Shown piece after piece: positions 17,216-60,607 of a stretch of 64,000 nt of DNA. Source of the stretch: Tetracentron sinense (Eukaryota > Streptophyta > Magnoliopsida > Trochodendrales > Trochodendraceae); contig CM026566.1 of NCBI GenBank assembly GCA_015143295.1, positions 4,699,072 through 4,763,071 of the forward strand, in the 5' to 3' direction. Numbering within the stretch: the first letter of the stretch is position 1; the number at the start of each line of letters is the position of its first letter. A program made the position numbers and the translations under genes. The notes beneath the pieces are model-generated. The model worked only from the letters and a program-made list of their open reading frames with translations. It was not told where the DNA came from and made no database searches.

Positions 17216-17225
17216 GTGTAATGTT

Positions 17226-23311: not shown

Positions 23312-23464
23312 TCTCAGTAGGCGCCTTCTTTAAGATATTACCAAAGAATAGCAAGATCTCTTAAAAAACAACCCAGTAGATTAAAACCCAAGAACAAAAC
23401 AAACATCATGACTCGCTAGATGCCTTGAAGAAGGAAAAAAGAAATAAACATGGTGTAATTGGGA

Positions 23465-25499
23465 TCAACGAGGTCTAAGACGAATGGGAAATCCTTGTAC
23501 TGGGACAGGCAATGGGTCCACTTTTATCTTTTCATTAGGAAACACAGGCTCCCATCTGAACCACTTGACCAGATTATGGAGAAACACCATATTTCTAATC
23601 GAGCATACTCATATCCGGGACACCTTCGTGGCGCCCCTCCAAATGGAACATAAGTATAAGGAGCAGGTCCATCTCCATCAAATCTTGAAGGATCGAACTT
23701 CTCTGGCTCTGGGAAGTATTCAGGATTCTTGTGCGATGAATGAACACTCCAAAACAACTGTAACAATGAAAGACAAGGATTTTTTTTTTTTTCTTGCAGA
23801 GAAAAATTAAAATTTAACATTTGCAATGAGGGATATCATGAAAGTTACTGTGACGATGCCTATAGTAGCATACCTTCCACCCTTTGGGAATGTCGAAGCC
23901 TCCGTAAGTCAAATCTGTAATCGCCTCTCGGAATGTTCCCTCGATGGGCGGCGATAGCCTCAACACTTCACATGTTGTATTCCATGAATATTTCATCTGC
24001 CGAATGTCCTTCCAGTCTAACAGTTCACCAGGTGCTTTGGAAGCTGCAATGCCTATTTGCTCTGATAACCAAAATTGATGTACATAAGTTACACTTATGA
24101 GTGATACATGCAAGAATCTAAGAACAAAAGCAGGAGTTAAATGAGACTAATTTTTAGCAAGATAAATCTAATGAAGCCTGCAAGGAATAAAATTCGTAAT
24201 AAGAAGGGGTAAAATGAGAATTTCTCACTCTAATAAATTCTAACAACTTAGCCGACATAAGCCCACTTGGGCTATGTGCTGGCTCTCTTAGGTGTTATCT
24301 GACAGGTGACCTCATCACAAGTCATGATGACACTTAAGAGAGCCAGCACATAGCCCAAGTGGGCTTATGTCGGCTAAGTTGTTAGAATTTGTTAGAGTGA
24401 TAAATTCTCATTTTACCCTTTTTTATTACGAATTTTATCCCTTACAAAGCCCCTCTTAATTTGAGTAAATTAACTGAACTGTACCTCTTAAGATCTCTTC
24501 ATAGATGTGAGGCATTTCAGCTAAATATCTCATTAGCATAGCTATAGTAGAACTGGTGGTGCCATGAGCACTGAAAAGTAATAGTAGTATGTTGTCGGTT
24601 ATCTCCTTCTCTGTCAAAAACCGGCCATTCTCATCAGCTGTGCTGAGTAAAGATGTCAAGAGGTCATGTGTCGGCGACACCGTTCCCGCTGACAAAGCTA
24701 CTCGTCGCTGCTTTATAACTGACAATAGATCCCTGCATATCACATCCCTCGCTCTCATGGCTCGGTAGTAACGTGTGCCAGGAATATTCAAAGGTATTTC
24801 TATGATCCCATCCATCAAGACATGGAATTGTTGGGTAAGATTTTGTACAATATTTGGGTCTTGAATGGTCGTGAATATGCGCGAGGCCATGACAAAGGAG
24901 TGGAGCTTGAGAAGAGGGAACACCATTATTTCTTCTTTACCCCCCCACTCAGTCTCCATGAAGCTTTGAGTGATTGAATCCATTGTTCCGACGTAACTTT
25001 GTAGAGCTTCTGGCTTGAGAAATGCAGTGAGCAGTTTCTTTATCGGCCTTGCGTGGAGGCCTCGTGAGGTGAGAACCGAAGAAGGGAAGACATTCTGTAT
25101 GGATTTCGTCCACCATGTTACAACAAGCTTGTTTTCGTTGGAGAATAGGAACTTGTTAGCGGCAGGGCCACAGACTACAGCCACTGGTTGCAAGAGAAGT
25201 GAAGTCTTAAAAACGTCTTTCCCATATAAGAGCCTTCTCCTCTTAATGTACTCTTCGGGCTTTCCCAACTGACCCAAGCGTTGGCGAATCAGGGTTTCAC
25301 CGACGAGAGGCCATCCGAAGCTTCCCGGAGGGAGAATGTAACACTTAGGTCTGAATTTGGAACGGAAGGCTGTGAAACCGGCAAGGCATGCCAATGTCAA
25401 AAGGCCTAGTAACGAGCAAGAAATGAGTAGAACGATTTTGAATAGTGACGATTCTCCTAGTCTTTGCGAGTTGCTAACCAAATAAAATAGCGAGTGCAT
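23465..25499 (-). pseudogene. CYP716-type cytochrome P450, degenerate copy 1
   Basis: Same three-exon structure as copy 2: exon 1 25499-24485, exon 2 24061-23874, exon 3 23757-23465. Exon 3 is 293 bp instead of 294: one base is missing in CCATATTT where copy 2 has CCATTATTT, shifting the frame just after GYEYARLEI and ending the protein in unrelated residues. The haem loop reads [10 protein letters not shown] where copy 2 has [10 protein letters not shown], so the invariant glycine of FxxGxRxCxG is Ala. There is also PKCYILPPGS for [10 protein letters not shown] and, past the shift, an Arg-to-Trp codon. Promoter TATAAATA (25557-25564) and splice sites remain, so it may still be transcribed. 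The start at 25499 is chosen by analogy with copy 2; an upstream ATG lies at 25553. Confidence 0.92.
24184..24441. mobile_element. Long-stem foldback element in intron 1 of P450 copy 1
   Basis: Two arms of about 100 bp, for example GCCGACATAAGCCCACTTGG and its exact complement, surround a short loop near 24290-24330. The outer ends are GGAATAAAATTCG and CGAATTTTATCCC. The same element is at the same place in copy 2, so it predates the duplication. Confidence 0.9.
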
Positions 25500-25556
25500 A
25501 ACTCCTTCCCTTTTCGTAAGGAATGAAGATGGGGAAAAGATGTGGTTAAGCATTTA

Positions 25557-25564
25557 TATTTATA
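25557..25564 (-). promoter_or_regulatory. TATA box of P450 copy 1
   Basis: TATAAATA on the minus strand, 3 bp upstream of the ATG at 25553 and 57 bp upstream of the ATG at 25499. This spacing favours the inner ATG. It is conserved in copy 2. Confidence 0.6.
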
Positions 25565-25810
25565 GGGAAAGATGATTCTATGAGACAAAAGGAAGAAACA
25601 ATATCTCATAGAGAATAACTATGAACTGGAGCTCCTTTTAAACAGTCAACGGGAGCAATACAAAATTTACCTTATATTGGACATCCACACATCATCCGAC
25701 ATATCGTGATAAAAAAGAGAGAAATCATTTAATATTCTCCCCATGTTTTTTACTTCTCCCCTATTTGATATCTCTCCCCCTTCTCATTGTCACATGTCAG
25801 ATGATGTGTG

Positions 25811-28528
25811 TGTAAACGCCTAAATTTACCGCCTTTCCTCCCCTCTCATCTCTAAGTGTCGAGATAAGGTCCGAGAGTGAGGAATAACGATAAATTTATT
25901 CTAAGAGTCGCCACCTACTTAGGGGAAAGTAGGATCCCAAGATAAATCCAAAATAAGGGGTCTACGGTCCAGAGTAGTCTAGGTAAGAGATCCGTTTAGG
26001 TCCTGGGGAAGGGGTTAGGCACCCCAGGACCTCCATCCAATGATGGTAACCTACTCATTAGGTCTAAGCCAAACATTTAAAATCGCTTAAAATTTCCTAA
26101 ACAATTACTAATTTTGCTAATCAAACACAAATCAATATGGGGTATAAAAATTTTAACTTTGGTTGGGGTCGAATCCTGGTTTGGGCTGGCTTCTTATCCG
26201 GTTAGTCGGAATCAGACCCTAATAGTAGTTCGGGGTGGTGACTGTTTTTATACTCGTTTCGGAGTTTGTGGTCACTTCCAACTCGTGCTTGAGTTGGGGT
26301 TAGTGGAGTTGAGATTTATGAATCTCACTCCGGGATTTGGTTACGCAACTAGGTGCTCATGGGGGAGCGCTATGGGGCGTTCATTTATTAGGGTAGGTCC
26401 TTTTTGAATTTTGTAGGTTTTTGTTGTTTTGTATTTTTTTGATTTTTTTTGTATTTTTTAACTAACGGGGTAGGCAAGTTGTTTAGGGTTGAATCCACCT
26501 AAGTGCCCGAAGTAGGTAAAAAGAAAGAATAAGCTATGGCCTAATCCTATGACTTGCACATACACACATGAGAGTAAATTACAATAAATTAAATATGACT
26601 GGAAATGATTAGAGATCAAAGAGGGCCAAGATGGAACTATTTTACCAAGGTCTACTGACCATTATTAGAAAGGGTCAATTGACTTTAGTCCAATAACTTA
26701 GCCTGAGGTCAAACCTTGTTTAACAAAGGCCTTAGAAATGACTTTAAAAAAGATAACTGAGGGTGATACTAACCTAGGGTCAGTCTAAAAGTAAGAATAA
26801 ATAAATGAATAAGAACGAACAAATGGGAAAGCCACTGTCATGGCCAAACATGGTTCATTGGCTGCACTACCAAATTTTAACTATACAACAGGTTTTAAAC
26901 AAACCAAAAACAAAATTAAAATAAAATAATAATAAAAAAAAATCAAATGAATCAAATATTTCTCTTCAAAAATCTGACTCGTTTCTAGTTTTGAAAATGA
27001 AAACCTAAGTCCCTAATTTTGAGCAAATTAAATCAAGCTTAACTTTAACTAGGGTCTAACCAAACACAAGAAAATGTTCGGGTTTCAGTCAAACCCCTTT
27101 TGCTCTCATGACCCAAGTAAATTCTGACTTCAGGGTTTAAACACAAGTAAACCAAAAATTGATTTCATATTTCATGACGAGTCATCTTTAATCTCAAATC
27201 ACAATCTCTTATCCAAACAAAACAATAATGGAATTCAAGCATTGTTGGATCCATAGCAGTTCGCAAAAAGGGAATTAAAAAACAGGTAAAAGAACAAATT
27301 AAAGAAGGGAGGAAGCATACCCGACCATAGCTGGCGAGAAGGGATATGATGATGCCACTGCTCCGGATTTTGGAAGAAGAAGACCACACTCAAACTTAAA
27401 TACAAATAAATAAATAAAATAATAATAAAATAAATGGAAGGAGCCACTGGTGTAGGTGAGATGATCGGTGAAGATGGCCGACTGGTGAAGTCAGCCAGAT
27501 CTTGGATCTGAGATGTTTCTGTACAATGAACCAAAGAAAATAAATATTAAATAAAATAATAATTAGAAGTAAAAGAAAAGAAAAAGAGAAGCTACAGAGA
27601 TTTGAATCCAAATTTCTAGATCTAAAAGTCTAGATCTAGAAATCCATGATCTAGAAGAATGGAGATCAGGATGGAAAAAGAACTAAGGGGAGAGGAATTG
27701 AAAAGGTTGGGTGATTATTACCTGAAAAAAAAAAAAAAGGGAGGAAGTGAGCAGCAGGCCAGAGCTACAAGCTCGCCGGAAATTGGAGTTGTTGCTGTCG
27801 CGATGTTGCTGCAATACATGATCAGAGGAGTTGCAGCTCACCGGGGAGGAGCAAACACAAGAGAAAAGAGGAGAAGGGGAAAGAGCTCGAGAGAGTTGGG
27901 TCGTCGGCCCTCTAGACAGGCTGCTGCTACCGGAGATGGAGGTGCTGAGATGCATGTTGCGGTCCAGACAATGGAGAGCTTGTTGATCAGATCCCTCATC
28001 GGCGGGAGAAAGAGAAAAATGTGAGAGCGAGCTTGAGAAAGGTTGCTAGAGTAGATAGAAGAGAGAAGTGAAGAGAAGAGAAGATAACAGGAGAGAAAAC
28101 TCTCTGTTGCCGAAAACAAATGGAGGATGAAAATGAGGTCAGCTGACCTCAAAAAGCAAATTTATAAGGTGTGGTGACTAGGGTTTCAAAATGGGCTTGG
28201 GCCTTTGAAAGTTTTAAACCCTTTTGAGAGTTTTACAAATAAGTTATGGGCTTGGCTTAGATATGGGCTTGGGATTAGGTTTCTTGAGCACATGGGCTTG
28301 GGTTTGGGGTTTTTAGATTTGGATTTTGGTTATGAATTTGATGAAATGGATTAAGAGATGGGCTTGGGATTATGGAAATTTTACTCTCTCTCTCTCTCTC
28401 AAAACTCCCCAAGCTCGCATAAAAAAAGAAATAAAATAAAACTAAAATTAAAATTTAAAATTACAAGTAAATGAGATAAAATAAAAAAAAAACAAGGGAT
28501 TGATGGGTGTAAAAATGGGGTGTTCACA
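25811..28528 (-). repeat. 3' LTR of the LARD (complete, 2718 bp)
   Basis: Nearly identical to 36408-38539 plus 53845-54449. It begins TGTAAACGCC and ends GGGTGTTCACA on the plus strand. It includes a CT microsatellite at about 28382-28400. Short open frames on both strands recur in the two LTRs and are not genes. Confidence 0.95.
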
Positions 28529-28541
28529 GTTGCCCCTCTTT
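28529..28541 (-). other. Polypurine tract of the LARD
   Basis: On the minus strand AAAGAGGGGCAAC directly precedes the LTR start TGTGAACACCC, the standard position for plus-strand priming next to the 3' LTR. Confidence 0.8.
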
Positions 28542-29089
28542 GTCGGAGATTGCTGGCAATTGAACGGCAAAGACTGAAACACCGTCATTTTTACACACAA
28601 AAATCCTGAAAAAGCTTAAAGAAATAGAAGAAAGAGAAGCTAAATTCTAACCCTAGAAAACTTGCTAAAACAATTGGATGTAGTGATGGATAGTAGTTTA
28701 TAGCCTTATTGCGGAGGACAACTGGGGAAAAACAGTGTAAACGAGATATGGACTGAAGGACTGTTGTGGAAAATGAATGTAAGGGAAACATGGATTGAAG
28801 GGAGGTCGCGTACACTACTGCATGGAGACTGATATAGTGTTTGGAGCGAGAGTAGTGCGACATGAAATTTGAGGATGAAATAGATGTCATGGGTTGAAGG
28901 GAGCTCATGAACACTACTGCATGGAGACTGATATAGTGTTCAGAGTGAGAGAAGTGCTTACGGAAAGCTGAGATGCGCATGGAACGCGGGGAATGCTCAC
29001 GGATAGCCGCGATGCACACAGAGCGCGGGGAATGCTCATGGAGAGCGAGAAATGCTCACGGAGAGCTGAGATGCGCACGGAGCGCTGGA

Positions 29090-30455
29090 TGAGGGTGACA
29101 ACACATTTCGGTGTCAGCCAGAGATTGAATTGATGGATGATAACACATTTCGATGTCAAACAGATGAGATGAAATAGATGACAACACATTTCAATGTCAA
29201 CCAAGAAGAGATGAAATGGATGACAACACATTTCAATGTCAACCAAAATGAACTAAATGACAACATATTCCGATGTCAAACAAATGAGATAAGATGGATG
29301 ACAACACATTCCGATGTCAACCACACTGAACTGAATGACAACACATTCCGATGTCAAACAGATGAGATGAATGCATGACAACACATTCCGATGTCAAGCA
29401 GACGAGATGAAATAGATGACAACACATTCCGATGTCAACCAAACTGAACCGAATGACAACACATTCTGATGTCAAACAGGTCGAGATGAATGCATGACAA
29501 CACATTCCGATGTCAAACAGACTGAACTGAGGGACAACACATTCCGATGTCAACCAAACTGAACCGAATGACAACACATTCCGATGTCAAACAGGTGTGA
29601 GATGAATGCATGACAACACATTCTGATGTCAAGGAGACGAGATGAATGACAACACATTCTGATGTCAAACAGGTCGAGATGAATACATGACAACACATTC
29701 CGATGTCAAGCAGACGAGATGAGATGGATGACAACACATTCCGATGTCAACCACACTGAACTGAATGACAACACATTCCGATGTCAAACAGATGAGATGA
29801 ATGCATGACAACATATTCCGATGTCAAGCAGACTGAATTGAGTGACAACACATTCCGATGTCAAACATATGAGATAAGATGGATGAAAACACATTCCCAT
29901 GTCAACCAAAGCATATTGAATGACAGCACATTCCGATGTCAAACAGCATAGAAAAGATGGATGACAACACATTCCGATGTCAACCAAACCAACTGAATGA
30001 CAACACATTCCGATGTCAAACAGGTCAAGATGAATGCATGACAACACATTCCGATGTCAAGTAGACGAGATGAAATGGATGACCACACATTCCGATGTCA
30101 ACCAAAGCTTATTGAATGACAACACATTCTGATGTCAAACAGCATAGAAAAGATGGATGACAACACATTCCGATGTCAACCAAACCAAACTGAATGACAA
30201 CACATTCCGATGTCAAACAGGAGAGAAAAGATGGATGACAACACATTCCGATGTCAACCAAACCGAACTGAATGACAACACTTTCCAATGTCAAATAGCA
30301 GAGAAAAGATGGATGACAACACATTCCGATGTCAACCAAAATGAACTGAATGACAACACATTCCGATGTCAAACAGATCGAGACAAAATAAATGACAAAA
30401 CATTCCGATGTCAGACAGAACTGAATGACAACACATTCCGATGTCAGCCAGATAC
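29090..30455. repeat. Tandem array with ACAACACATTCCGATGTCAA core
   Basis: Roughly 35 units of about 38 bp. A well-kept core (ATGACAACACATTCCGATGTC) alternates with variable spacers such as ACCAAACTGAACTGA and AACAGATGAGATGGATG, giving a dimeric period of about 76 bp. Long repetitive frames on both strands (MTTHSDVNQ.. and DIGMCCH..) come from the repeat and are not evidence of a protein. In Ogre/Tat elements such arrays commonly sit upstream of the 3' LTR, which matches this position on the minus strand. Confidence 0.93.
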
Positions 30456-30499
30456 GCAGTTTTTACTAGAGACCTCCCGGCCTTGCCCAGTTTAGCATG

Positions 30500-30850
30500 A
30501 TTGCGGTTTTGTATTGTATGATGTGTGTACTATACAGTGTATGTGAAGTTGCATGTGCATTACATGACTCGAATGAGTGTGTATAACTTGAGTGCAGCTA
30601 TAGTGCAATATGTGTAACTCGATTGAGTGTATGCAACGGGAGTGTGCGAAATGGGTGCAACTAGTGCGATATGTGCAACTATAGTGTACAAATGAATATG
30701 TGCAAGATGGTGCAACTAGAGTGTGATATGTGTGACTCAATTGAGTGTGTGCAACTATAATGTGCAAGATGGGTGAAAATAGAGTGCGATATGTGCGACT
30801 CGATTGAGTGTGTGCAACTATAGTGTAAACTGTGTTGAGAGTGCATTGAC
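30500..30850. repeat. Second tandem array, TGCAACTATAGTGTGCAA type
   Basis: Irregular repeats of GTGTGCAACTATAGTG, GAGTGCGATATGTG and GACTCGATTGAGTGT with a unit of roughly 60 bp. Unrelated in sequence to the preceding array. Confidence 0.8.
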
Positions 30851-31544
30851 TAGACTAGGTAGTGTGCATGTATGATATGCAGACCTATGCATGACTCGAC
30901 TTATGATGCTGTTGGGTTGGCTAAACCTGGGTTGAACCAAATTGACATCCATGAGTGACGCAGATTGATGATGGGCTAAGTATATGACTCGCTCTTTGAT
31001 ACCTGTCTCATGCTTGTCTGAGATTTCAGAGGTTCTAGACTTTGCTCCATCTTCTTGTCGAGCTTGTTTGGTGCCTTGAACAGTTGTTGAGATGGGATTG
31101 ATCTGATCAAGCCAAGAGACATGACTGACATTAGGACCTTGATGACCAAATTGAGGATGATTAGATATTTCTTGGAAATGCCCTACGGTTTGAATGAGAT
31201 TGATTTCAAACGAATATCAAGATCCTGATTTTGGTTGGTTATTTTGAAGACAACCGATATTTTTCGAATGCAAATGTTTTCTTTGCTCATTGGATTTAAT
31301 AAGGTGATCACCTTCACAAGGCGATTGAATTTTGTCCTCAAGGGTAGAACATGATGCTAAGCAAATATGACCCGTCATGCTGTGTCAGTGGTAAAGTTGA
31401 TCTTTAATCCTTGACATATGCTGAATTGGGCCTTGCTACGAACAAGAGACACTTAGTCCACTCTGACGATAAGATTCTTCAGATGATGCCTGAAAGTAGT
31501 TTGTCTTGATCTCGGGGATGCTCCTAGTGAATGCTTGTTGCTTT

Positions 31545-32065
31545 CAATTTTTTCCTTTTTTACCCTTGGAATGACCAAGTCTGGGGATTGCATAATTGTT
31601 GCACAATGAGGCCATTTCTGGTTTTCACTCATGCCTGTGAATTTGATCAGATTTTCTTTTTCCCTTTTTTGCCTTTAGTCGCAAGACTAGGCCTGGGGTT
31701 CGCGTAATTTTGCGAAATGAGGCCGTTTCCGGTGTTCTCTCATGCCCTCAATTTGCTTGAGGTAAAGCTCTGTTTCGACCATAAAATCCTTCAATTGGTG
31801 CTTGAAGTTCCTTCGAACTGATCTCAAGGAAACTACTGTTGAACGCTTGATGTTTTCAACTTTCCCTTTTTTACCCTTGGAATGACCAAGTCGTGGGGTC
31901 GCATAATTTTTGCGCAATGAGGCCGTTGCCAGTTTTCACTCATGCATGCGAAGTTGATCAATTTTTGTATTTCCCTTTTTTGCCCCTAGTCGCAAGACTA
32001 GGCCTGGGGTTCGCGTAATTTTTGCGCAATGAGGCCTTTTCAGGTTTTCACCCATGCCCGCGATT
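31545..32065. repeat. Diverged tandem duplication, period about 310 bp
   Basis: CTTGGAATGACCAAGTC..CGCATAATT and CGCAAGACTAGGCCTGGGG each occur twice, followed by TGAGGCCGTTTCCGGTTTTC-type blocks. It lies in the interior of the LARD. Confidence 0.75.
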
Positions 32066-34599
32066 TGTTTCAAGTTGGGTTTCGCTCCCTTTATTGCCTT
32101 GGATGATTGCATTCTGCTTTTGAATATTGTTTGATAAATTGTCTGCACTCTTAATCTCTAGGGGATCGAGGTGGACTTAAGATAGGACGAAATGTAGGCT
32201 GAGGGGACCGAATATTTGGGACACCCTTCTACTTGAGAAATCATTTTCCGCTATGGGGAGAAGAATCTTGATTCTTTTGCTTCTGATAGAAGATAAAAAT
32301 TTCTATTGAAAATTCATCTACTTGAGCGCCTCTTGACTTTGTTCTTGCCCATTTTTTTTCTTTTTCCTTTTGACATTTTGTCTTTCTATAATTTTTTTAC
32401 GAGCCTTTTTTGATTGAGGCTGATTTTTTGCTCAATAGATTGAATGTTATTACCAAATCTGATTTTCCAGGTTGCCTACATACCTTTTTACAGGATCAGG
32501 TCATTGACGTAGTTCAAGCAGACTGAGTACAGGGTGTCCCGTTGAAAGTTTTTTTTGAAAGAAGGGCTATTAGGCTCGAGAGGGCTAACTATCGAACTTT
32601 GATGATATATCGAGGGTGTTATATAAATCGTAAGGGAATTAGGTGACAAAAATGGCCTCCTGTCCTTTCCCGAAGAGGCTAAGAGTGCAAGCATTTATCA
32701 AATAAGACCCTAAGCATAATACTTTTTAACCTTATCCATGTTGATTGGCTCAGGGCTCCTTGTACAAATGTTGAGTTTGCCCCTTACATCTGCATAGCTC
32801 GATGATGCCTTGGTGAAAACGAATCATTTGCTCTGGCTTGTTGATTTGCACAACTGTGTGAAGAGTTTTACCACTTTTACTCCGAGTGAGTGCTCTGATG
32901 AGATATGTCACTTGAAGAAAAATATCATATCTTAATGAGAGTGGCTTTAGCTCGGCATGGACAAATCTTGATTTAGATCCGCTTTCTCGCTTGTCTATGA
33001 TAATTGTTCCGCGGCATTTCTCAAATTTAGATCTTGAGCAACCACACTATTCTTGCCCCATGCATCGGTGAGGGTACTATTGTGGTGAATCTGTTGCCCC
33101 AACTTATATCGAGATCTTAGTGGGTTTTGAATCTCACCTCAAGTAAATCTTTTCTCTTGCCCCTTTGCATGTATTAGATGTACTTCATGTATTGATTGAA
33201 TCTAACAATTTTGCATTTGATCTTCCTTGTCATAGTCAAATGCTTTGCCTGCAAACTATTGAATTGGGACAACTGAGAACCTGTAACTTTTCTTTTGAAA
33301 TGTACCCTTGAAGGGTTTTGGCGGACAATAGGAGGTGAACTTGCATTTTTTCTGATCTATCTTGACCTTGATCCCCTGCCCCTAGTGTAGCAAAGTTCTG
33401 ATTTTTACACACGTAGGATCATTACCCAACTTTGTTCTGCTTTGTAACACTCGCACGGGCTTGAGGGTTTCCAGTTAGGAATCTCTCTCTATTCTTCATC
33501 ATACTCTGCCCCCCAGGGTTGCGGATTTTATTTTTGTTTGAGTGATCCCTTATTTGATCCAATAAGCTTAGCTACCATTTTTTATTAGGAGAAAGATATT
33601 TTTGGATTTTGGATAGCTTTAGATTGCTAGACTCTTTGAGAAGTGTTAGGTCACGCCTTCATTAGCCAAAGGAGAGAAGACTCTTGAAAGGAAGAGAGAT
33701 TTCAAAGAATTGGAAGATGGAGATGACTCGAGCACTGCAAAATGAAAATGTTGCAAACTGGATTTGTACATGGGCCACTGTGATCGACACTGACCGATAG
33801 AAAGCCCAACTAAGACCGACTCAAAATTGGCTTGATTTCAATCCATCTCGCTCGACATCTTGCTCTTGGAACTCCTTTCTAACGAGACTCGAAAATGCCC
33901 TGCTTGGCTTTCTTAGGTGGCACAAGGGTGGTTTGTTGATGTAGCAAAATGATGTATGAAGACAGATGTTTCAGGGAACTCAAGTTCGAAATTGGTCACA
34001 TCCATCAAGTTTTGGGTGGTGCCCGCACTTTTACGGTGCGGAGGGTGGGCATGGAATGATATGTTGAGTAAGAGAAGTCTGTGGTTGTGTCATTAAGATA
34101 AATGAGTGGGTGTTTGTTGGAATGGCTGATGGGTGAATCTGGGTTTGCCCCTATGCCACCAAGAGTTTGTTGAGAGCCAGGATGACATCTTTGAGAACAA
34201 ATTTGATTTCTCTAATGTCTTGCCCAATGATTGAGGAGAGTCATCGTGATGATCTTTTGGTCATTCGATGTGTCTCCGTGCTCCATATTTTCTGCTTCTG
34301 TTCCACTACTTGGGCAAGTCGTAAGATGAAAGTAAAGAGCGAGTCACTACCAGATTGAGGTGGATTGGATCATGATGCTACATGAGAACGCATGGATGAA
34401 AACCAACTATTATGAATGAGGTGAGTGCTATGGGAGACTCAAAATGAATGGCCTATTAAGCAACTTCCTAAATGAGATATGCCAAATTAAGGGTCAGGAC
34501 ATGTTTTGAATGATAGACTTTTGGAACTGGACTCCATGGTTGTGCTACCTCTGAGGGTGTTGCCAACTAGATGATGCATGAGGGAGACTCGACTAAACC

Positions 34600-42927: not shown

Positions 42928-42945
42928 ACTACAAGAAAACAAGTA
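42928..42945 (+). repeat. Second internal CACTA-type end
   Basis: CACTACAAGAAAAC in left-end orientation, without an obvious GACGGAAA cluster after it. Position is accurate to a few bases. Confidence 0.55.
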
Positions 42946-48256: not shown

Positions 48257-48710
48257 CATGTAACTTGTAATACGAAATATTTATGTATTTTTGACAATCA
48301 ATGAGAGAACATTTGCCTAATTCCAGCTTAGAATTTGAGTCAAGATTTAATTATGTACCCTTACTTTGTTAAGGTATAAGTTGAGTAATTTTTCCAATAT
48401 AATTTGAGTTAGCATTTGATTCTCTCATGACAAGCATAGCGCTTTTAATTTCAGTTGACAAAGTGGGCGATAATAATAAATTTAATTACGTAATGAAATA
48501 AAGTTTTGCATTGTTTGTAGGTTAATGTTTTATGTTCCTCTTTCCCTTTTATCTATGCCTTTAATTTAACACTTTCTTTTCGATGAAATAACTATTCCGT
48601 CACTATTAGCACTTCGCGTGAAATATTTTTATTGTTTACTTGTTATGGTATCGCCATTATTGTTGTTGTTTACATTGTTTATCTCATATCACTCTCAAAA
48701 TTTTACAGGG

Positions 48711-51700
48711 ATGAGTACAATAAGGAAGAGAAGCCGGCACCGTGAGAACACTAGTCAGATTGGGGCTTCCCAACATGAGACTGGGAGTTCCAGCCAGCCT
48801 ACAGGATCGCAACAGGTTGGTTTGCCACCTCAGCAGCAGGACGGGCCAGACCATCACGAGGTTGTTCCTTTGTTAGGTAATTGAATGATTTTGTCAATTG
48901 ATCTAAAAAATTTGTGCATTTAACTTATGTGAATCTGATACAATTTTGTTTATTGTGTTCAGGCCGTCCACCGCGCAAACGGACTAGGGGACCAAACAGG
49001 GCCATTCCACCACCGCCATCGGGTCAGCCCCGCCTCTCAGTGGCGGTTAACGACGTTGGACAGCCCACCGGGACTAATGCGGGTCGATTATCACGGTTTA
49101 TAGGGGTTTTGGCGATGGATGGGGATATTGTCCCCATCAGTTACTCGGATTGGCGGCTAGTTCCTGACTTCGTGAAGCAAGGCGTGATGGATAGAGTACT
49201 AGTAAGACCAAAGTTTACTCACATCTGGCTGAGTACTGTTTTTATCTATCTTATTTATGATTTTTACACCCTATTTGCTTCAGATAGAATAATTTGGAAT
49301 GCTAAGAAATTATAAATAGTATGGGAATGCTAAGAAATTCTCATTTTGAATTTTAGACTACTTAAAGAGCAATGAGGAAAAATTAGCTAAGAGATACTTT
49401 TTCAATTAGATGGTCAAGGATAGAACAGTAGATCATTTGTTACTTAATTGTCCTCTACTTAGAGTGGAGTGCTTGCTTCAAAATTACAAGTTAAATACAA
49501 TTGTTGGCTAAAATAATTGTATATCTTCGCGTCAACACTATATCTCCGTGTGTGTGAATTTATCTTATGTTTTTCTACAAAATCCAACTTTATGTGAGTA
49601 TCAGATGCCTTTGTTATTAGCAATTTGGTGTGCAGGAGATGAGGCCTAGGTACTATTAGGTGACCTCCACTCAATAAGGGTCTTTGCTAGGCAAGGTGGT
49701 GGCCTAAGGTCCTAGGTGTTGTTTAGGCAACATTTGGGTTTATCTTAAAATCACTATTCAATTGATCTAGTTCAATTAACTAGCTTTTTTTTTTTTAATG
49801 GTGAGAGTGAGTTTATGGCTAGAATTTATTCCCGGAGATCTTAAACCAATGACCTAATGGGTATTCACTTATTGAAAAGCTGTTGGGGAGTGCATATGTG
49901 AATTGTTGGTCTGCCATTTTGGTCTTCAAAAGGAGACTGATGTGGTTGTTAGTCACTGGTGCCTGATCTGCATATCTGGTGAACCATCATTCTTGAACTG
50001 GATTCTCAAGCTCAACAGGAGTTTCTCTCATACACATGAAATTATATTCTCTTACATGTTACAGATGGATTGTTAATTGATGAGCAAGTGTCTTGAAATA
50101 TCATACAAATGGGTTCTCTACCATGTGAATTCGCCTAAATCCACAGGGCTTAGTATTTCTGAAACCATTTCTCTCCAATTGAATTACAAATCAGCCACAT
50201 TTATAAAATCTATAAATGCTTCCTCTTTAAGCTGAAATTGGAAACAAATTTACCTAGTTGCTGTCATGCTTAACTTTTGCTGCTGATGCTACAGATCTCA
50301 GTTTCAGCTTATTCGCTTAAACACATCATCAAAACAGTTCATTCACTCTGACCCATATTCGCTTTGCTGGAAGGCTTTTCCATCCATAGTCCACATTTCA
50401 TCTATCACAGGCTAACTTTTCAACATATATTTAGATGACCAAAATCATCAACTTTACCCATTTGAATGTTTTTCTATAAAGCTTTGTATTTTTTGCCCTT
50501 ATATTCTCTTTATTCTGAAACCCTATTGCTAATGGAGAGTGCTGTATATGGTTAGCTGTACCTCTACCTGGAATGGGAGCCATACACGGGTCTAGATTTT
50601 CCCTTTTAATGCTCCGTTTGTTTTGATGTAAAGTAGAGGAAAATAAAAGAATTCCACGGAAATTGTCATTTTTCTTGTGTATTTTCTATAGGACAATTGA
50701 CATTTTCCATGAATTTCACTTGCTTTCCCCTATTTTACATTAACACAAACGGAGCATAAATGTAAAATGCCTTACCCTATTTTTTCTGCTGCACGCATCT
50801 AACATAACTTCCTCTACTCTTTCTTCCTGGCAGCCTTGGTGCATTGCGTAAGTCTTTATTCTTGTGCAAAGGTAGCAAATATGTAGTACTTTTAGAGGAT
50901 GGGGATTCATAATAGTGCAGTCTAAGATGAGTATCAGCCTGCGGTGTTATAACATGTAATAGTATTTTTTAAGCTCCAATCCTTATTTTCTGAGCTATAG
51001 CAACTCCAAGTTAGTTTGCATTTGTGATGGCTTGAACCCAATATTTTTTTTAACTAATCATGAGATTAACAGGATCCAATATATCAATTTAATTGAATGT
51101 TTAATTAGTATACAACTATACATACAATAACAGTTAATTACAGACAAAAACGAATGGGATTATATGCATCATTTCTTCGTATTATGTTTATGCACTTTTG
51201 TACCCTTTCTTTTATTTCTGAATTATATATTTTCATTCAATATACACAACCGAGAATGTTATAACATGTAACTCTAATCATTGTGATGTAGACGGTATTC
51301 GACCTCCCCCCAAGAGCAGATACGCGGGCTTGGGTAGACCAAAAATGTGATGCTCTCTGGAAGAATTGGAAGGATCGGCTATGGAGGGAATAGCACAATC
51401 AACTGCTCTCATTAGATGACCAGATGGCCAGTGTCGATCATAGGGCCATTCCAGCGCAATGGAGAGCCATGGTGGCTCATCGGCGTTCCAAGCGGGTGAT
51501 GGTATCCCTTTGAGATCACATGTTTAAATCTCTGACACTCGGTACAGACCTCATATTAATATTAGATGTTATTTGCATTTGTAGGCTATGAGTAGAAGAA
51601 ACAAGGAGAACAGATCGCATCTACGTACGTCTCATACGGCAGGGACGCGGAGTTTCGCCCAGTATAGGGCAGATGCGGTATGCTTGCATATTAAGTAGTA

Positions 51701-52390
51701 CTAATTGTGACATATCAGTGACTATCTTTGTCTCATTTTTATCTATTATTAATTATTTACCTAAAGGCGAAAAAATTGTTTTATTCACGAGGATAGCAAG
51801 CACGGGATCCAAACGGACAAGAGCCAGATAGGATGCAGATGTACCATATGATGCATGTTCGCCGAGATGGGACGTTTGTCGACCAGGCATCTTCTGATCT
51901 TTATGTATGCTCATATCATCACATGAATTGATTGTTAATAAATTTCGATGTCCGTCATTATTCCTAAATTGCAATCAACGGTATTTTGTGTATACAGTCA
52001 CAGATGGATGAGCTAGTTAGCCAGCATCCGGAGGGTACCACTAGTAGCACCGCTAGGAATGAGTTGTTCACCCAGGTCATGGGTCCGGACACGCATGGGT
52101 GGGTTCGTACGTATGGACTGGGTGTTAAACCCTCTCAGTTTCGCTCTTTAGATGCTGACCATTGGAGGAGGAGGGCCGAAGAATTAGCTGACCTGAACAA
52201 GAATTTGGTGGCTACTACAGAAGAGATGCGGGCTGAGATGAGTGCCATGAACACTCGGATGAAGGCGTTTAAGGATTGGATGTCTCATATGAATGTCGAC
52301 TCACATATACCCTTCAGATCGACACCTGTTACGGACCCCGATGCTACACAGACTCCTGATGATACACAGATGCATGATGATCTCACATGA
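48711..52390 (+). pseudogene. CACTA second gene (TnpA-like, Transposase_24), two in-frame TAGs
   Basis: Six exons by splice signals: 48711-48876, 48963-49201, 51292-51501, 51585-51677, 51767-51904, 51998-52390; total 1239 bp, divisible by three. The N-terminus is basic and Ser/Gln-rich (MSTIRKRSRHRENT.., PPRKRTRGPNRA). The middle fits the plant En/Spm Transposase_24 family (LPPRADTRAWVDQKCDALWK, IPAQWRAMVAHRR, NRSHLRTSHTAGTRSFAQ). The C-terminus has a heptad-like helix (WRRRAEELADLNKNL..) suited to dimerisation. TnpA-type proteins bind the subterminal repeats and help bring ends together. In-frame TAG codons lie at 51391-51393 and 51794-51796, both explained by CAG to TAG. Alternative splicing around them was not found by eye. 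Intron 2 is about 2.1 kb and carries a MITE. If the TAGs are real, this copy lacks a full partner protein. Confidence 0.8.
50610..50756. mobile_element. Tourist-like MITE in intron 2 of the second CACTA gene
   Basis: Ends TGCTCCGTTTGTTTTGATGT and ACATTAACACAAACGGAGCA are inverted repeats with few changes. It is flanked by TAA on both sides (50607-50609, 50757-50759), the target duplication of PIF/Harbinger elements. 147 bp. Confidence 0.85.
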
Positions 52391-52929
52391 CTGGTTTTTT
52401 TATTCACTTAGTAGTGGTGAATTTTTGGTTTACATGATCTCCCATACACTTTCTTATTTGCATAGTAGATGTTTATCATGCATATTGGATGTTTATTAGG
52501 TGATCCAGTCCTGAGGACCCATTTCTCTAAAATACCAATGCTCTAAAATACCAAGGAGACTCTGCCCAAATTTTTTTTAAAAATAATAATTTTCCAAAAG
52601 GAATAAGATATGGTTTAGGGAAGTGATTTAAAACTCTTGATAGTAGGTACTATCGAGAGCTCAGCCACCGGATTAAATTCCAATGGCACTAAACATGGAG
52701 TGTGGCCTACCATTTTAAAGCGGTTGCACCTTGAAATTGTTGAATGTTTAATCTAGCTACTGAGCTCTCCATAGTAGGTAGTATCAAGAGTTTTAAATCA
52801 CCTCCTTAAACCTCAACCGCCAAATTAAAATTCCAACGACAATAAACATGAAGTGGGGCCTTCCATTTTAAAGCTGTTGGATGATTAGCTAACAGCCACT
52901 GTTTATTTTTGCTATAGATTAAAAAAAAA

Positions 52930-53290
52930 AAGTGAATGAATGAGATGAAAATGTGAATGAATGAATGGATGTACAGGTGTTGTGAATGAAAATGTGAATT
53001 GATGTACAGGTGTTGTGAATGCAAATGTACATGGATGTACATGTTTTATGAATGAAAATGTGAATGGATATGTATAGGTTTTGTGGATGCAAATGAATGA
53101 ATGGATTTATTAATGAAAATGTGAATGAATGTACAGGTTTGTGGAGTCATTTGTATGAATATGGATGTACAGGGTGGATGAAAATGTGAATTGGAATGTA
53201 TGTGAATGAATGGATGTACAGGGTTTGTGAAAATGTGAATTCAAATGTATGTGATCAATGAAAGGATGGATGAAAATATGAATTAGAATG
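52930..53290. repeat. Irregular GAATGGATGTACAGGT repeats
   Basis: Repeated words GTGAATGAATGGATGTACAG and GAAAATGTGAAT with a loose period of 35-45 bp lie downstream of the second CACTA gene and just before the right subterminal repeats. Confidence 0.75.
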
Positions 53291-53354
53291 TATGTAGTCT
53301 ATACAGGTGCAGGACATTCGAGTTAGCATTTAGATTAAAAAAAAAAAAAAAAGT

Positions 53355-53841
53355 ATTAGTGACGGAAATATTACGGTCACTAAGAACTTAGTAGCAACAA
53401 AAATATTACCGTCACTAATGATCTGTTAGAGACGGACATATTTCCGTCGCTAGTAGAGACGGACATATTTCCGTCTCTACTAACTTAGTAGGAACGGAAA
53501 TATTTTCGTCACTACTAGATTATTAGTGACGGTAAAATTTCTGTTGCTACTAAGTTAGTAGCGACGGATATATTTCCGCCGCTGTTAGCGACAGAAATAT
53601 TTCCGTCGCTAATAGATTTCCGTTACTAAATTCCTTATTCAATATTCCATCAGTAGCGACGGATAATTGCCGTCACTATTAGCGACGGAAATGTATTTCC
53701 GTCCCAAAAAACCTTTAGCCACGGAAGCAACAGTAACGGATTAGCGACGGAAATTTTTCCGTCGCTAATAGTAATAGAGACGGAAAATTGCGTATTAGTG
53801 ACGGAAAAGTTCCGTCGCTGCACGGTAAATTTCTTGTAGTG
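53355..53841. repeat. Right subterminal repeats of CACTA-2
   Basis: Many copies of TTAGTGACGGAAATATT and of GCGACGGAAATATTTCCGTC in both orientations, ending at the terminal inverted repeat. Denser than the left cluster. Confidence 0.88.
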
Positions 53842-54449
53842 GGTGCTGAGATGCATGTTGCGGTCCAGACAATGGAGAGCTTGTTGATCGGATCCCTCAT
53901 CGGCGGGAGAAAGAGAAAAATGTGAGAGCGAGCTTGAGAAAGGTTGCTAGAGTAGATGGAAGAGAGAAGTGAAGAGAAGAGAAGATAACAGGAGAGAAAA
54001 CTCTCTGTTGCCGAAAACAAATGGAGGATGAAAATGAGGTCAGCTGACCTCAAAAAGCAAATTTATAAGGTGTGGTGACTAGGGTTTCAAAATGGGCTTG
54101 GGCCTTTGAAAGTTTTAAACCCTTTTGAGAGTTTTACAAATAAGTTATGGGCTTGGCTTAGATATGGGCTTGGGATTAGGTTTCTTGAGCACATGGGCTT
54201 GGGTTTGGGGTTTTTAGATTTGGATTTTGGTTATGAATTTGATGAAATGGATTAAGAGATGGGCTTGAGATTATGGAAATTTTACTTTCTCTCTCTCTCT
54301 AAACTTTCTCTCTCTCTCTCAAAACTCCCCAAGCTCGCAAAAAAAAAGAAATAAAATAAAACAAAAATTAAAATTTAAAATTACAAGTAAATGAGATTAA
54401 ATAAAAAAAAAAACAAGGGATTGATGGGTGTAAAAATAGGGTGTTCACA
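53842..54449 (-). repeat. 5' LTR of the LARD, second part
   Basis: Resumes at GGTGCTGAGATGCATG and matches about 27941-28528, ending GTGTTCACA. The first three bases are the CACTA target duplication. Confidence 0.95.
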
Positions 54450-55562
54450 GTATGGATGTCCTGGACCATTTTTCTAAGCATCTCCATAGACAATCCCATG
54501 CCGTCCCGTTAACTCACTCACATTTTGGAAAAATCCACATGGTATGGAAAAGTTCCCCTTGGATTACACGACCAAGGGTAAACTCACTCCCTTAACACAA
54601 GCAAGTGCACATAGCACATAAATGATATTGACCCCATAATAGGCGCTACCAAATGGGAAGAGTGGCATTGATATAATTTATTCATAAGAGTAATGCAATG
54701 TCCAGTTTCCGGCCATCCACTCTTATTTTTATCAAGGAGTCAAATCCTCTAGGGGCAAATCCGGTTATCACCCCCTAGAGGTCGCCATGTGTCTCCTTTG
54801 ACATCCCTTAACCATGGTTAAGATTCACCCACCCAATTTTTTTTTTTTAAATATTAATTTTTTTTTTTAAATTAAAAAACTATTTTTAATTTAAAAGAAA
54901 CTCTTAAAACAGTTTTTGAATTAAAAAAAAAAGAATTAATATTTAAAAAAAACCAAAGATGAGTGGATGAACCCTAGGGGTGGGTGAACCTTACCCACGG
55001 TTAAGGGGTGTCAAAGGGGACACATGGTGATCTCTAGCAGTGATAACCGGATTTGCCAAATCGAGTTCTCACCGTAGATGATTTGACTCCTTTTATTAAT
55101 TCAACACAAAGGAAAAAAAAAAACAAAACAAAAGGATGGCACCCATTAAAAAAAAAAAAATAGTGTAGCAGTATTTTGTTTTCTGGTATTAAGTGGGGGG
55201 AGAGTGGATGGCAGTAAAAGCCTATAATAATAATAATATATTATGATTATAATATTATTCTTCTTTATTTTTGTGCCTCCAAAGGTAACATGTACAAGGA
55301 TGTAAATATACGGCCAACTTGTAACCGGTTTTGCCACTCTTGTGGTCACCACATGTCCCTTTTTACATCTCTTAATCGTGGTTAAGATTCACCTACCGTT
55401 AGGGTTCATCCACTTATATTTGGTTTTTAGAAAAAATTAACCTTGGGATTTGATAAATTTTAACCACGGTTAACATTTTTTTTTCTAAAAACCAAGAATA
55501 GATGGTGAACCATAAGGGTGAGTGAATTTTAACCATAGTTAAGAGGTGTCAAAAGGGACATG
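54450..55562. repeat. Duplication unit 1, right part (displaced flank)
   Basis: Matches 58981-60607 except for small indels, an extra segment near 54503-54642 and the hAT insertion in unit 2. Similarity ends at AAAAGGGACATGTG. It is the original upstream flank of P450 copy 1. Confidence 0.85.
54700..55245. mobile_element. Foldback element upstream of P450 copy 1
   Basis: The outer words GGCCATCCACTC and GAGAGTGGATGGC, and the inner words ATCCGGTTATCACC, TCCTTTGACA and TTCACCCACCC with their complements, form a large imperfect inverted repeat around an A/T-rich centre. A related smaller foldback follows at about 55281-55565. The counterpart in unit 2 is at about 59090-60250. Confidence 0.7.
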
Positions 55563-56089
55563 TGTATTTTATAAATTTGACCATTTTTTCTTTATTCTAC
55601 ATTGTCAATCAAAAATGTTGGGACTTCCTTGGCATTTATTGAAACTTGGACGATATCTCAGTTGCTAGAATCCATTGAAAGGGAAATTTCATCATCTCAT
55701 TCAAAGTGCGGGGTGTTCTTTATCAATTTGCTTAAAAGCTGAAGCGTATTTTTGTCATTCAGTTAAAGAGAGGATGAACTTTACTTGTTCTCTCTAATCT
55801 GAACTTTAAATTTCTGTTAGACAACGTCTCTTTTGATATCCTCAGGATTTTTAAAGCCTTCTTTCCCTTTTGTTTTTCTGCTTTTCTTCAAGCTTAGCTT
55901 AAAGATGCCAAGATAGATGGATAGATAGTAGCCAAACCAGTTAGGGAAAATTTTCAGCTTATTGTCTTCATCTTGTTTTCAATTTTCTTGGGAAAGAAAA
56001 TTAAAGGGGTTTAATTTCCTACTTGAATGTGAAGACTCTTCTTTGAAGATGCTAAACTTTCTGAACCTATACACACCTATATATATTCC
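55563..56089. other. No recognised gene
   Basis: Unique AT-rich DNA between the displaced flank of unit 1 and the partial CACTA end. No supported ORF. Confidence 0.5.
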
Positions 56090-56518
56090 GACTGTTATCA
56101 GCCCGTCTGTAATTATTTTCAAAAAAATGAAATTTACAGTACCGATGATTATTTACCATCGGTATATATATTATACTGATGGTACAAATATACGTCGGTG
56201 TTGTTAGAATTTTACCGACAGCAACTTACCCGTCAATATATGTTCTATACCGATGGTACAATATCAGTCACTGTATATTACATTATAACGACAGATATAT
56301 TGTCGTTTGTATTTTTGGAATTTTACCGACGGCAAAACATGCCTCGGTATATATTATATACCGACGGTTATAGGCTGTTGGTATTACATAAAAAACCGTC
56401 GAAAATATCACCGACGACTTACTAACGGTTAAATAACCGTCGGTGATGTTTCTACCGACGGAGAATTTGTTATTACCGACGGTTCTTACCCGTCGGTAAT
56501 AAGCGTTTTTCTTGTAGT
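56090..56518. mobile_element. Partial CACTA element, right end only
   Basis: Ends in TTTTTCTTGTAGTG at 56518 and carries ACCGACGGT and ACCGTCGGT repeats, a different subterminal motif from CACTA-1 and CACTA-2. No CACTACAAG left end was found. It directly abuts the start of duplication unit 2. Confidence 0.75.
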
Positions 56519-56671
56519 GACGGTCTCAGTAGGCGCCCCTTTAAGATATTACCAAAGAATAGCAAGATCTCTTAAAAAACAAGTAGATTAAAACCCAAGA
56601 ACAAAACAAACATCATGACTCGCTAGATGCCTTGAAGAAGGAAAAAAGAAATGAACATGGTTTCAATGGGA

Positions 56672-58702
56672 TCAACGAGGTCGAAGACGAATGGGAAATC
56701 CTTGTACTGGGACAGGCAATGGGTCCACTTTTATCTTTTCATTAGGAAACACAGGCTCCCATCTGAACCTCTTGACCAGATTATGGAGAAACACCATTAT
56801 TTCTAATCTAGCATACTCATATCCGGGACACCTTCGTGGCCCCCCTCCGAATGGAACATAAGTATAAGGAGCAGGTCCATCTCCATCAAATCTTGAAGGA
56901 TCGAACTTCTCTGGCTCTGGGAAGTATTCAGGATTCTTGTGCGATGAATGAACACTCCAGAACAACTGTAACAATGAAATATAAAAGATTTTTTTATTCT
57001 TGAAGAGAAAAAATTAAAATTTAACATTTGCAATGAGGGATGTCATGAAAGTTACTGTGACGATGCCTATAGTAGCTTACCTTCCACCCTTTGGGAATGT
57101 CGAAGCCTCCGTAAGTCAAATCTGTAATCGCCTCTCGGAATGTTCCCTCGATGGGCGGCGATAGCCTCAACACTTCACATGTTGTATTCCATGAATATTT
57201 CATCTGCCGAATGTCCTTCCAATCTAACAGTTCACCAGGTGCTTTGGAAGCTGCAATGCCTATTTGCTCTGATAACCAAAATTGATGTACATAAGTTACA
57301 CTTATGAGTGATACATGCAAGAATCTAAGAACAAAAGCAGGAGTTAAATGAGACTAATTTTTAGCAAGATAAATCTAATGAAGCCTGCAAGGGATAAAAT
57401 TCGTAATAAGAAGGGGTAAAATGAGAATTTCTCACTCTAATAAATTCTAACAACTTAGCCGACATAAGCCCACTTGGGCTATGTGCTGGCTCTCTTAGGT
57501 GTTATCAGGTGACCTCATCACAAGTCATGATGACACTTAAGAGAGCCAGCACATAGCCCAAGTGGGCTTATGTCGGCTAAGTTGTTAGAATTTGTTAGAG
57601 TGAGAAATTCCCATTTTACCTCTTCTTATTACGAATTTTATCCCTTACAAAGCCCATCTTAATTTGAGTAAATTAACTGAACTGTACCTCTTAAGATCTC
57701 TTCATAGATGTGAGGCATTTCAGCTAAATATCTCATTAGCATAGCTATAGTAGAACTGGTGGTGCCATGAGCACTGAAAAGTAATAGTAGTATGTTGTCG
57801 GTTATCTCCTTCTCTGTCAAAAACCGGCCATTCTCATCAGCTGTGCTGAGTAAAGATGTCAAGAGGTCATGTGTCGGCGACACCGTTCCCGCTGACAAAG
57901 CTACTCGTCGCTGCTTTATAACTGACAATAGATCCCTGCATATCACATCCCTCGCTCTCATGGCTCGGTAGTAACGTGTGCCAGGAATATTCAAAGGTAT
58001 TTCTATGATCCCATCCATCAAGACATGGAATTGTTGGGTAAGATTTTGTACAATATTTGGGTCTTGAATGGTCGTGAATATGCGCGAGGCCATGACAAAG
58101 GAGTGGAGCTTGAGAAGAGGGAACACCATTATTTCTTCTTTACCCTCCCACTCAGTCTCCATGAAGCTTTGAGTGATTGAATCCATTGTTCCGACGTAAC
58201 TTTGTAGAGCTTCTGGCTTGAGAAATGCAGTGAGCAGTTTCTTTATCGGCCTTGCGTGGAGGCCTCGTGAGGTGAGAACCGAAGAAGGGAAGACATTCTG
58301 TATGGATTTCGTCCACCATGTTACAACAAGCTTGTTTTCGTTGGAGAATAGGAACTTGTTAGCTGCAGGGCCACAGACTACAGCCACTGGTTGCAAGAGA
58401 AGTGAAGTCTTAAAAATGTCTTTCCCATATAAGAGCCTTCTCCTCTTAATATACTCTTCGGGCTTTCCCAACTGGCCCAAGCGTTGGCGAATCAGGGTTT
58501 CGCCGACAAGAGGCCACCCGAAGCTTCCCGGAGGGAGACTGTAACCCTTAGGTCTGAATTTGGCACGGAAGGCTGTGAAACCGGCAAGGCATGCCAATGT
58601 CAAAAGGCCTAGTAACGAGCAAGAAATGAGTGGAACGATTTTGAATAGTGACGATTCTCCTAGTCTTTGCGAGTTGCCAACCAAATAAAATAGCGAGTCC
58701 AT
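56672..58702 (-). CDS. CYP716: CYP716-type cytochrome P450, intact copy 2
   Basis: Three exons: 58702-57688, 57268-57081, 56965-56672, all GT..AG, giving 498 residues. The protein is a haem monooxygenase, probably on the ER membrane. CYP716 enzymes mostly oxidise triterpenoid scaffolds such as amyrins; the substrate here is unknown. Visible: an N-terminal membrane helix ([20 protein letters not shown]), the proline-rich [14 protein letters not shown], the family signature [10 protein letters not shown], the K-helix EVLR (370-373), FDPSRF, and the haem loop [10 protein letters not shown] with Cys447. The I-helix reads SAHGTTSS, so the usual acidic residue before TT is Gly (313) in both copies. 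An ATG 18 codons upstream (58756) lies only 3 bp from a TATA box, so I prefer 58702. Intron 1 contains a foldback element. Confidence 0.9.
57391..57644. mobile_element. Long-stem foldback element in intron 1 of P450 copy 2
   Basis: Same element as 24184-24441, with ends GGGATAAAATTCG and CGAATTTTATCCC and arms of about 100 bp. The loop is a few bases shorter than in copy 1. Confidence 0.9.
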
Positions 58703-58759
58703 AACTCCTTCCCTTTTCGTAAGGAATGAAGATGGGGAAAAGATGTGGTTAAGCATTTA

Positions 58760-58767
58760 TATTTATA
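58760..58767 (-). promoter_or_regulatory. TATA box of P450 copy 2
   Basis: TATAAATA within CCCTATAAATATAAATG. A start of transcription about 30 bp downstream would fall between the ATGs at 58756 and 58702 and leave a short leader before the inner ATG. Confidence 0.65.
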
Positions 58768-59393
58768 GGGAAAGATGATTCAATGAGACAAAAGGAAGAA
58801 ACAATATCTCATAGAGAATAACAGTCACCGGGAGCAATACAAAATTTACCTTATACACATCATCCGACACACCGTGATAAAAAGGAGAGAACATTTTATA
58901 TTCTCCCTTTGTTTTTGACTTCTCCCCCCATTTGATATCTCTCCCCCCTTCTCATTGTCACATGTCAGATGATGTGTGTTCTAGACCATTTTTGTAAGCA
59001 TCTCCATGATAGGCGCTACCAAAGGAGAAGAGAGGCATTGATATAATTTATTTATAATTTATTTATAAGAGTAATGTTACGTCCAGTTTCCGGCCATCCA
59101 CTCACATGTTATTTTTATCAAGGAGTCAAATCCTCTAGGGGGCAAATCCGGTTATCACCCCTAGAGGTCGCCACGTGTCTCCTTTGACACCCCTTAACCA
59201 TGGGTAAGATTCATTCACCCCCAGGTTCACCCACCCATCCTTGATTTTTTTTTAAATATTAATTCTTTTTTTAAAATTAAAAAACTGTTTTTAATTTAAA
59301 AAAAACTCTAAAACCAGGTTTTTAATTTTTAAAAAAGAATTAATATTTTTTTAAAAAAACTAAGGATGGGTGGATGAACCCTAGGGGTGGGTG

Positions 59394-60006
59394 CAGGGGC
59401 GGAGCCAGGGGGGCCATGGCCCCCCCAAATTTTTTGTAAATCCCTTCTCTACTAGTATGACTAGTGGGCCCCTCAATTAAAAAAAATATTTTTAGTATAC
59501 TTGGCCCCCCCAATTTTTTTTTTCTATTTGATGAAGTGGCCCCCCCCCCCCCCCCCCCCCCAATTTTTTTTGTCACATATATAGTGGCCCCCCAATGGAG
59601 TCCCCTTATGCTCATGTCCCTATTGACACCCCTTAACTATGGTTAAAATTCACCCAATCTCATGGTTCACCTACTTATCCTTGATTTTAAAAAAAATATT
59701 TAAATAATTTTAATCTTAGGAGTTAGTGAATTTTTAACAAGGGTTCAAAAAGAAATTTGATATATTTTTTTTAAACCAAGGAGGTGGGTGAATCTTAACC
59801 GCAATGAAGGGGTATTAATAGGACATGTGGCGACCTCAAAAGTATTACAGAGAAAAAAAAAAATTTAAAATAAAAAAACTACCCGAAAAAAAATTTTCTC
59901 GGGGGCTAGGCCCCCGAACCCCCAAATCCAATACCCTCAAACCAAATTTTTTTTTGTATACATGTATTTTGACCCCCCCAATGAAAAATTCCTAGCTCCA
60001 CCTTTG
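59394..60006. mobile_element. Non-autonomous hAT element in unit 2
   Basis: Begins CAGGGGCGGAGCCAGG and ends CCTAGCTCCACCTTTG, imperfect 16-bp inverted ends. Both flanks are GGTGGGTG (59386-59393, 60007-60014), a perfect 8-bp target duplication. Unit 1 has the empty site (AGGGGTGGGTGAACC near 54976-54990). The interior includes a long C run near 59547-59561 and no transposase. Confidence 0.92.
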
Positions 60007-60607
60007 GGTGGGTGAACCTTACCCACGGTTAAGGGGTGTCAAAGGAGACACATGGTGATCTCTAGGGGTGATAACCGGATTTGCCAAATCGGGTTATCAA
60101 CGTAGATGATTTGACTCATTTTTATTAATTCTACACAAAAAAAAAACACAAACAAAACAAAATTGATGACACCCATAAAAAAAGTGTAGCAGTATTTTGT
60201 TTTCTTGTATGATAGTGGGGGGAGAGTGGATGGCCGTAAAAGCCTATAATAATAATAAATTATGATTGTCATATTATTCTTCTTTATTTTTGTGCCTCAA
60301 AAGTCAACATGTACAAGGATGTAAATATATGGCCAACTTGTAACCGGTTTTTGGCAAAACCGGTTACCCCCTGTGGTCACATGTCCCCTTTTACATTCCT
60401 TAACCGTGGTTAAAGATTCACTTACCCCTAGGGTTCACCCACCTATATTTGGTTTTTAGAAAAAATATTTTTTAAAAATTAACCCTGGGATTTGATAAAT
60501 TTTAACCATGGTTAACATTTTTTTTTCTAGAAACCAAGAATAGGTGGGTGAACCATAGGGGTGAGTGAATCTTAACCATAGTTTAAGAGGTGTCAAAAGG
60601 GACATGT

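Follow-up and report, generated by a model that had tools for sequence, protein, structure and literature searches.

Nested transposon insertions of legible order at a duplicated P450 locus in Tetracentron sinense

Two neighbouring copies of a P450 locus in Tetracentron sinense carry transposon insertions whose order can be read by comparing one copy with the other. In the favoured history, to which a probability of roughly 85% can be given, a locus with a P450 of the CYP716/CYP725 type would have been duplicated nearby. A non-autonomous retroelement of the LARD type would then have inserted, on the minus strand, about 0.3 kb upstream of the left P450, and a 15.3-kb CACTA element (CACTA-2) would have followed into the 5' LTR of the retroelement. 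Separately, a small hAT element would have inserted upstream of the right P450. After the duplication, gene conversion probably homogenised the P450 cores. Then or earlier, the left copy, probably a pseudogene today, would have lost its frame in exon 3, while the right copy stayed open.

As a duplicated plant P450 with nested transposition, the locus is ordinary but unusually easy to read; it is not a new phenomenon. It lies in GCA_015143295.1, CM026566.1, 4,699,072-4,763,071 of the forward strand. These 64,000 nucleotides are called the window, and all positions below refer to it. An initial annotation had described the duplicated units and their nested insertions. Self-comparison of the window and base-level checks show both to be real and nearly every coordinate to be right; the probable gene conversion and the probable pseudogene are additions.

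The homology between the units runs from 23308/56520 to 55564/60608, a small correction of the earlier coordinates. Unit 1 and unit 2 are 95.9% alike over 2,508 columns on the gene side, and 82.1% (392 columns) and 85.8% (618 columns) alike to the right of the insertion. A stretch of 150 bases at 54484-54633 of unit 1, bounded there by CCAT, is missing from unit 2. This is the pattern expected if unit 2 had suffered a deletion through the 4-base repeat, although the direction of the change is suggested by that pattern rather than observed. The units, the insertions with their unfilled sites, the uneven divergence and the frameshift are given directly by the sequence (Table 1). In the whole window, searches for tRNA genes and for Rfam families gave 0 of each.

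Table 1. Features of the duplicated P450 locus, in window positions.
Feature	Position	Strand	Basis or remark
Unit 1, gene side: P450 copy 1, 3' flank, ~0.3 kb of 5' flank	23308..25810	-	aligned to 56520-58978
Unit 1, distal upstream flank	54455..55564	.	self-comparison and alignment
Unit 2, without LARD	56520..60608	-	self-comparison
Inter-unit spacer	55565..56519	.	ends in right end of truncated CACTA (56519), exactly at unit 2 border; base-level check
P450 copy 1, exon 1	24485..25499	-	counted from second ATG
P450 copy 1, exon 2	23874..24061	-	GT/AG sites
P450 copy 1, exon 3 region	23465..23757	-	frameshift, early stop at 23524-23526
P450 copy 2, three exons	56672..58702 (57688-58702, 57081-57268, 56672-56965)	-	GT/AG borders; open, 498 aa
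Foldback element, intron 1, copy 1	24179..24446	.	arms 90% alike
Foldback element, intron 1, copy 2	57386..57649	.	arms 91% alike
Low-divergence tract between units	24017..25213	.	limits drawn after seeing differences
LARD-type LTR retroelement, CACTA-2 nested inside	25811..54449 (28,639 bp)	-	LTRs, PBS-like site, purine tract, no gag/pol
LARD target repeat, left, GTGTG	25806..25810	.	
LARD target repeat, right, GTATG	54450..54454	.	
LARD LTR adjoining P450 promoter (3' LTR in LARD orientation)	25811..28528	-	
Other LARD LTR (5' LTR in LARD orientation), split by CACTA-2	36408..54449	-	
Tandem array inside LARD	29096..30453	.	unit ~40 bp, higher-order 78 to 430 bp
CACTA-2	38540..53841 (15,302 bp)	+	GGT target repeat at 38537-38539 and 53842-53844
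hAT-type element, unit 2 only	59394..60006 (613 bp)	.	target repeat GGTGGGTG at 59386-59393 and 60007-60014

The largest insertion is the LARD (large retrotransposon derivative). It has TGT...ACA ends and two direct LTRs that themselves end in TG...CA. Four bases inside the LTR at 36408 there is a PBS-like string, TGGCGACTCTGCTGGAG, which is a candidate site only; a tRNA-Arg-like PBS string found no match in a literature search. A purine tract, AAAGAGGGGCAAC, precedes the LTR at 28528. Since both are read on the minus strand, the LARD has the same orientation as the P450s. None of the 31 open reading frames of at least 60 aa within 28529-36407 matches a gag or pol family (Pfam, E up to 1), all matches staying below the curated cut-offs. 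Long LTRs (2.7 kb), an interior of about 7.9 kb and this lack of gag and pol matches agree with the LARD definition. Unlike the type element, whose LTRs measure 4.5 kb, the present one has shorter LTRs and a large tandem array. The ~40-bp unit of the array contains GACAACACATTCCGATGTCAA.

The target repeats of the LARD are alike at 4/5 positions. Their length of 5 bp is the usual one for plant LTR elements (93.4%, according to an excerpt of PMC6317226). Unit 2 was said to keep an uninterrupted site for the LARD. The site is indeed unfilled, but it is not letter-perfect: the target repeat is followed by GATGTCCTGGACC in unit 1 and by TTCTAGACC in unit 2, which differ by 4 bases in length and by substitutions. 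The imperfect repeats and this length difference count against the combined history. The length difference beside the site could also be the trace of a LARD that was present before the duplication and later lost from unit 2. Such a loss is hardly credible, as the unit 2 site holds no solo LTR and no LTR fragment and the LTRs are less diverged than the flanks of the units; a LARD older than the duplication was therefore rejected.

CACTA-2 has CACTACAAGAAA at each of its ends. It sits in one LTR of the LARD only, and the other LTR reads GGAGGTGCTGAG without interruption. Because a single template serves for both LTRs when an element inserts, the placement of CACTA-2 after the LARD is secure. Within CACTA-2 lie a tnp2-type transposase reading frame at 44535-46847 (PF02992, E 1.2e-102) and a DUF4216 match at 47510-48256 (E 1.1e-27). 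A second CACTA left end, CACTACAAGAAAACAAGTAAT, is found inside the element at 42927, so the ownership of the transposase is ambiguous and the reading frame could belong to an inner element. No right end matching this left end was found within five edits. Elsewhere in the window, 14499-17224 is 72.9% alike to the transposase region at 44153-46856 and is another, older-looking CACTA.

The hAT element is non-autonomous by its size, being too short for a transposase. Twelve of its 16 terminal bases are alike. Where unit 2 has two copies of GGTGGGTG, unit 1 has a single one, which bears out the earlier statement that this insertion happened separately in unit 2. It postdates the duplication or, at the least, is confined to unit 2, and can be placed relative to the duplication only, not to the LARD. 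Inside it, at 59600-59870, there is a foldback-type repeat akin to those found in the upstream flanks of the two units, an extra layer of nesting.

Matching unfilled sites were thus found for the LARD, CACTA-2 and the hAT element, as expected if the tandem copies serve as each other's empty-site controls. Target repeats together with such sites are far beyond chance and are hard to produce by misassembly.

The two LTRs differ at 41/2713 sites (Kimura two-parameter distance 0.0153 +/- 0.0024), and are 98.2% (2,135 columns) and 95.4% (610 columns) alike in the self-comparison. Divergence between the units is uneven. It is 0.013 in exon 1, 0.006 in exon 2, 0.017 in intron 1 and 0.021 in exon 3. 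It rises to 0.033 in the 3' flank, 0.047 in the near 5' flank, 0.064 in intron 2 and 0.078 beyond the LARD. Codon comparison gives dS 0.031 and dN 0.009 (11 and 10 changes; codon 458, which holds a deletion, was dropped from the 498). The P450 synonymous divergence that had been suggested as a measure of age can thus be computed, but with units so unevenly diverged it is a poor clock.

Outside the core tract the comparison is clearer. Silent unit sites there differ at 95/1576 positions, far more than the LTRs (p 2.5e-15). The difference holds for outside-core sites left of the LARD alone (26/640, p 0.0002) and after masking (63/1085, p 6e-12; left of the LARD 17/500, p 0.009). The LTRs do not differ significantly from the whole gene part (50/2454, p 0.17), and their divergence equals that of the core tract (p 1.0). 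In these counts the distal alignment reused three unit 2 bases that also end the gene-part alignment, so that one of its 69 differences is possibly spurious; hAT remnants in it (four left-end bases and one right-end base) became a gap. The LTR comparisons each omit one or two end bases.

LTR divergence is therefore not clearly greater than that of the units. Since it is below the silent divergence outside the core, the order of duplication, then LARD, then CACTA-2, as first proposed, stands. It rests on the flanks and ends, and the P450 bodies alone would miss it.

The low divergence of the core calls for an explanation. Silent sites in the tract differ at 8/541 positions versus 95/1576 in the rest (p 4e-6, calculated after the fact), or 5/516 versus 63/1085 with gaps and homopolymers masked. 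Shuffles of the whole silent alignment, scored by the best low-divergence segment under three penalties, reached the observed score in 0, 0 and 8 of 5000, the third penalty being the longest identical run; after masking they did so in 0, 0 and 35 of 5000. Synonymous changes in successive codon blocks number 5/73.8, 1/173.8 and 5/112.7 sites. Gene conversion between the P450 cores after the duplication would be the likeliest reading of this pattern, favoured somewhat over its alternatives and short of proof. The best-scoring segments (e.g. 23871-24400 and 23328-25701) do not match the drawn tract exactly.

Alternatively, a slow core and a fast distal flank could reflect regional rates, with no conversion and a duplication only slightly older than the LARD. 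This account is less probable than conversion but far from negligible. Left of the LARD the contrast is modest (tract 8/541 versus 26/640, p 0.008), and shuffles of silent sites there gave 112, 11 and 200 of 5000, which weakens the case for conversion; with all sites they gave 2, 0 and 3 of 5000, counts confounded by coding constraint. The distal flank also differs from the other outside sites (69/936 versus 26/640, p 0.007); it is richer in foldback repeats and so may mutate faster. However, silent sites and intron 1 should be unconstrained, and codons 98-340 show synonymous changes at only 1/173.8 sites versus 10/186.5 elsewhere.

Probable conversion has two consequences. The P450 body would under-date the duplication. 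In addition, the foldback element of intron 1, which had been placed before the duplication, does lie at the same place in both P450 copies, but it falls inside the low-divergence tract. Conversion could have carried it from one copy to the other, and it is not firmly older than the duplication. Finally, conversion might have continued in the core after the LARD had split unit 1 and not beyond the 28.6-kb insertion, which would make the insertion a barrier to homogenisation. This last suggestion is unlikely.

At the boundary between the units, unit 2 starts exactly after the CACTA right end at 56519, and ACG comes next in both units. A left end for this truncated third CACTA was not found in the spacer within five edits, and a complete element there was rejected. 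A 957-bp spacer query gave only scattered matches of <=27 bases to the left and right flanks. Unit 1 stops within the tail of a foldback-type repeat, which in unit 2 runs further. A clean, simple tandem junction was rejected in view of the CACTA end and of the rest of the spacer, which has no clear counterpart in the flanks. Together with the foldback tail of unit 1, these features suggest that the junction was either altered once the duplication had taken place or formed with additional DNA. Immediately to the left of unit 1, at 23284-23310, a near-palindrome, GGTCTCAGGTTGCCTTGAGACC, is followed directly by ACGGTCTCAG, where the homology to unit 2 begins.

The two units could also be haplotypes of one heterozygous locus, falsely duplicated by the assembler, and the LARD and the hAT element would then be insertion polymorphisms. 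Their clean presence and absence would suit this, and a gene-part divergence of 2% (50/2454) is within the allelic range of some outcrossing plants. Yet two haplotypes are expected to keep matching, and here homology stops on both outer sides, the spacer matches neither flank beyond those <=27 bases, and silent divergence outside the core reaches 6% (95/1576). A false duplication is thus very improbable.

The genes themselves are P450s: exon 1 alone matches PF00067 at E 8e-15 and 2e-15 in the two copies, and among proteins of solved structure the best relatives are chains of taxadiene 5-alpha hydroxylase (E 5.9e-111). A P450 is assigned to a family if it shares 40% identity or more with named members. 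Comparison with one sequence, CYP716A12, gave 247/465 aligned residues (53%), which the CYP716 label fits but which does not prove it. CYP716 and CYP725 P450s belong to clan 85. Both copies read SAHGTTS in the I-helix (24530-24580 and 57730-57790), and copy 1 is frameshifted. The G of this motif takes the place of the acidic D of CYP716A12, and is either older than the split of the copies or common to them through conversion.

Copy 1 likely starts at its second ATG (25499), because the first in-frame ATG (25553) adjoins a TATA-like TATAAATA. Its exon 3 has lost one base near 23590, so that the frame shifts downstream of the haem loop; in the loop itself (~23634) FGGGPR has changed to FGGAPR. 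The haem loop of copy 2 carries the P450 signature. The frameshift, the altered loop and the displaced flank indicate that copy 1 is probably a pseudogene. From the LARD 3' LTR there are 311 bases to the likely start codon and 258 to the first in-frame ATG, and read-out from the LTR into the left P450 would be possible. The left P450 promoter had been described as moved about 28 kb from its upstream flank. The distance is confirmed at 28.6 kb, but with the gene probably defunct the displacement carries little functional weight.

Dating nested insertions by LTR divergence is standard practice in plants. Nested cases of LTR retrotransposons and CACTA elements share with this locus the insertion within an insertion, the target repeats, the LTR clock and the ordering by interruption. 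They differ in that here a paralogous host unit supplies the unfilled site, an unusual convenience under the same logic. Among the literature matches listed, mostly the beginnings of abstracts, none names this locus, which does not prove absence. For the human CYP21A2 gene and pseudogene, an excerpt of PMC3843699 describes concerted evolution of a P450 pair. There, too, the P450s are in tandem, one is broken and conversion is proposed. Unlike that system, the present one is a single pair at a plant locus, with conversion not proven.

The locus offers a compact teaching case: a host gene is duplicated, one copy has received a retroelement, one LTR of the latter a DNA transposon and the other copy a hAT element, and there is a control for each insertion. 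A further lesson is that the gene body should not be used to date a duplication, since here that clock reads near the LTR clock and the flanks appear about four times older. If the LARD did act as a barrier to conversion, it would help the P450 copies drift apart. The open copy 2 may be of interest for work on P450s of triterpenoid or related kind.
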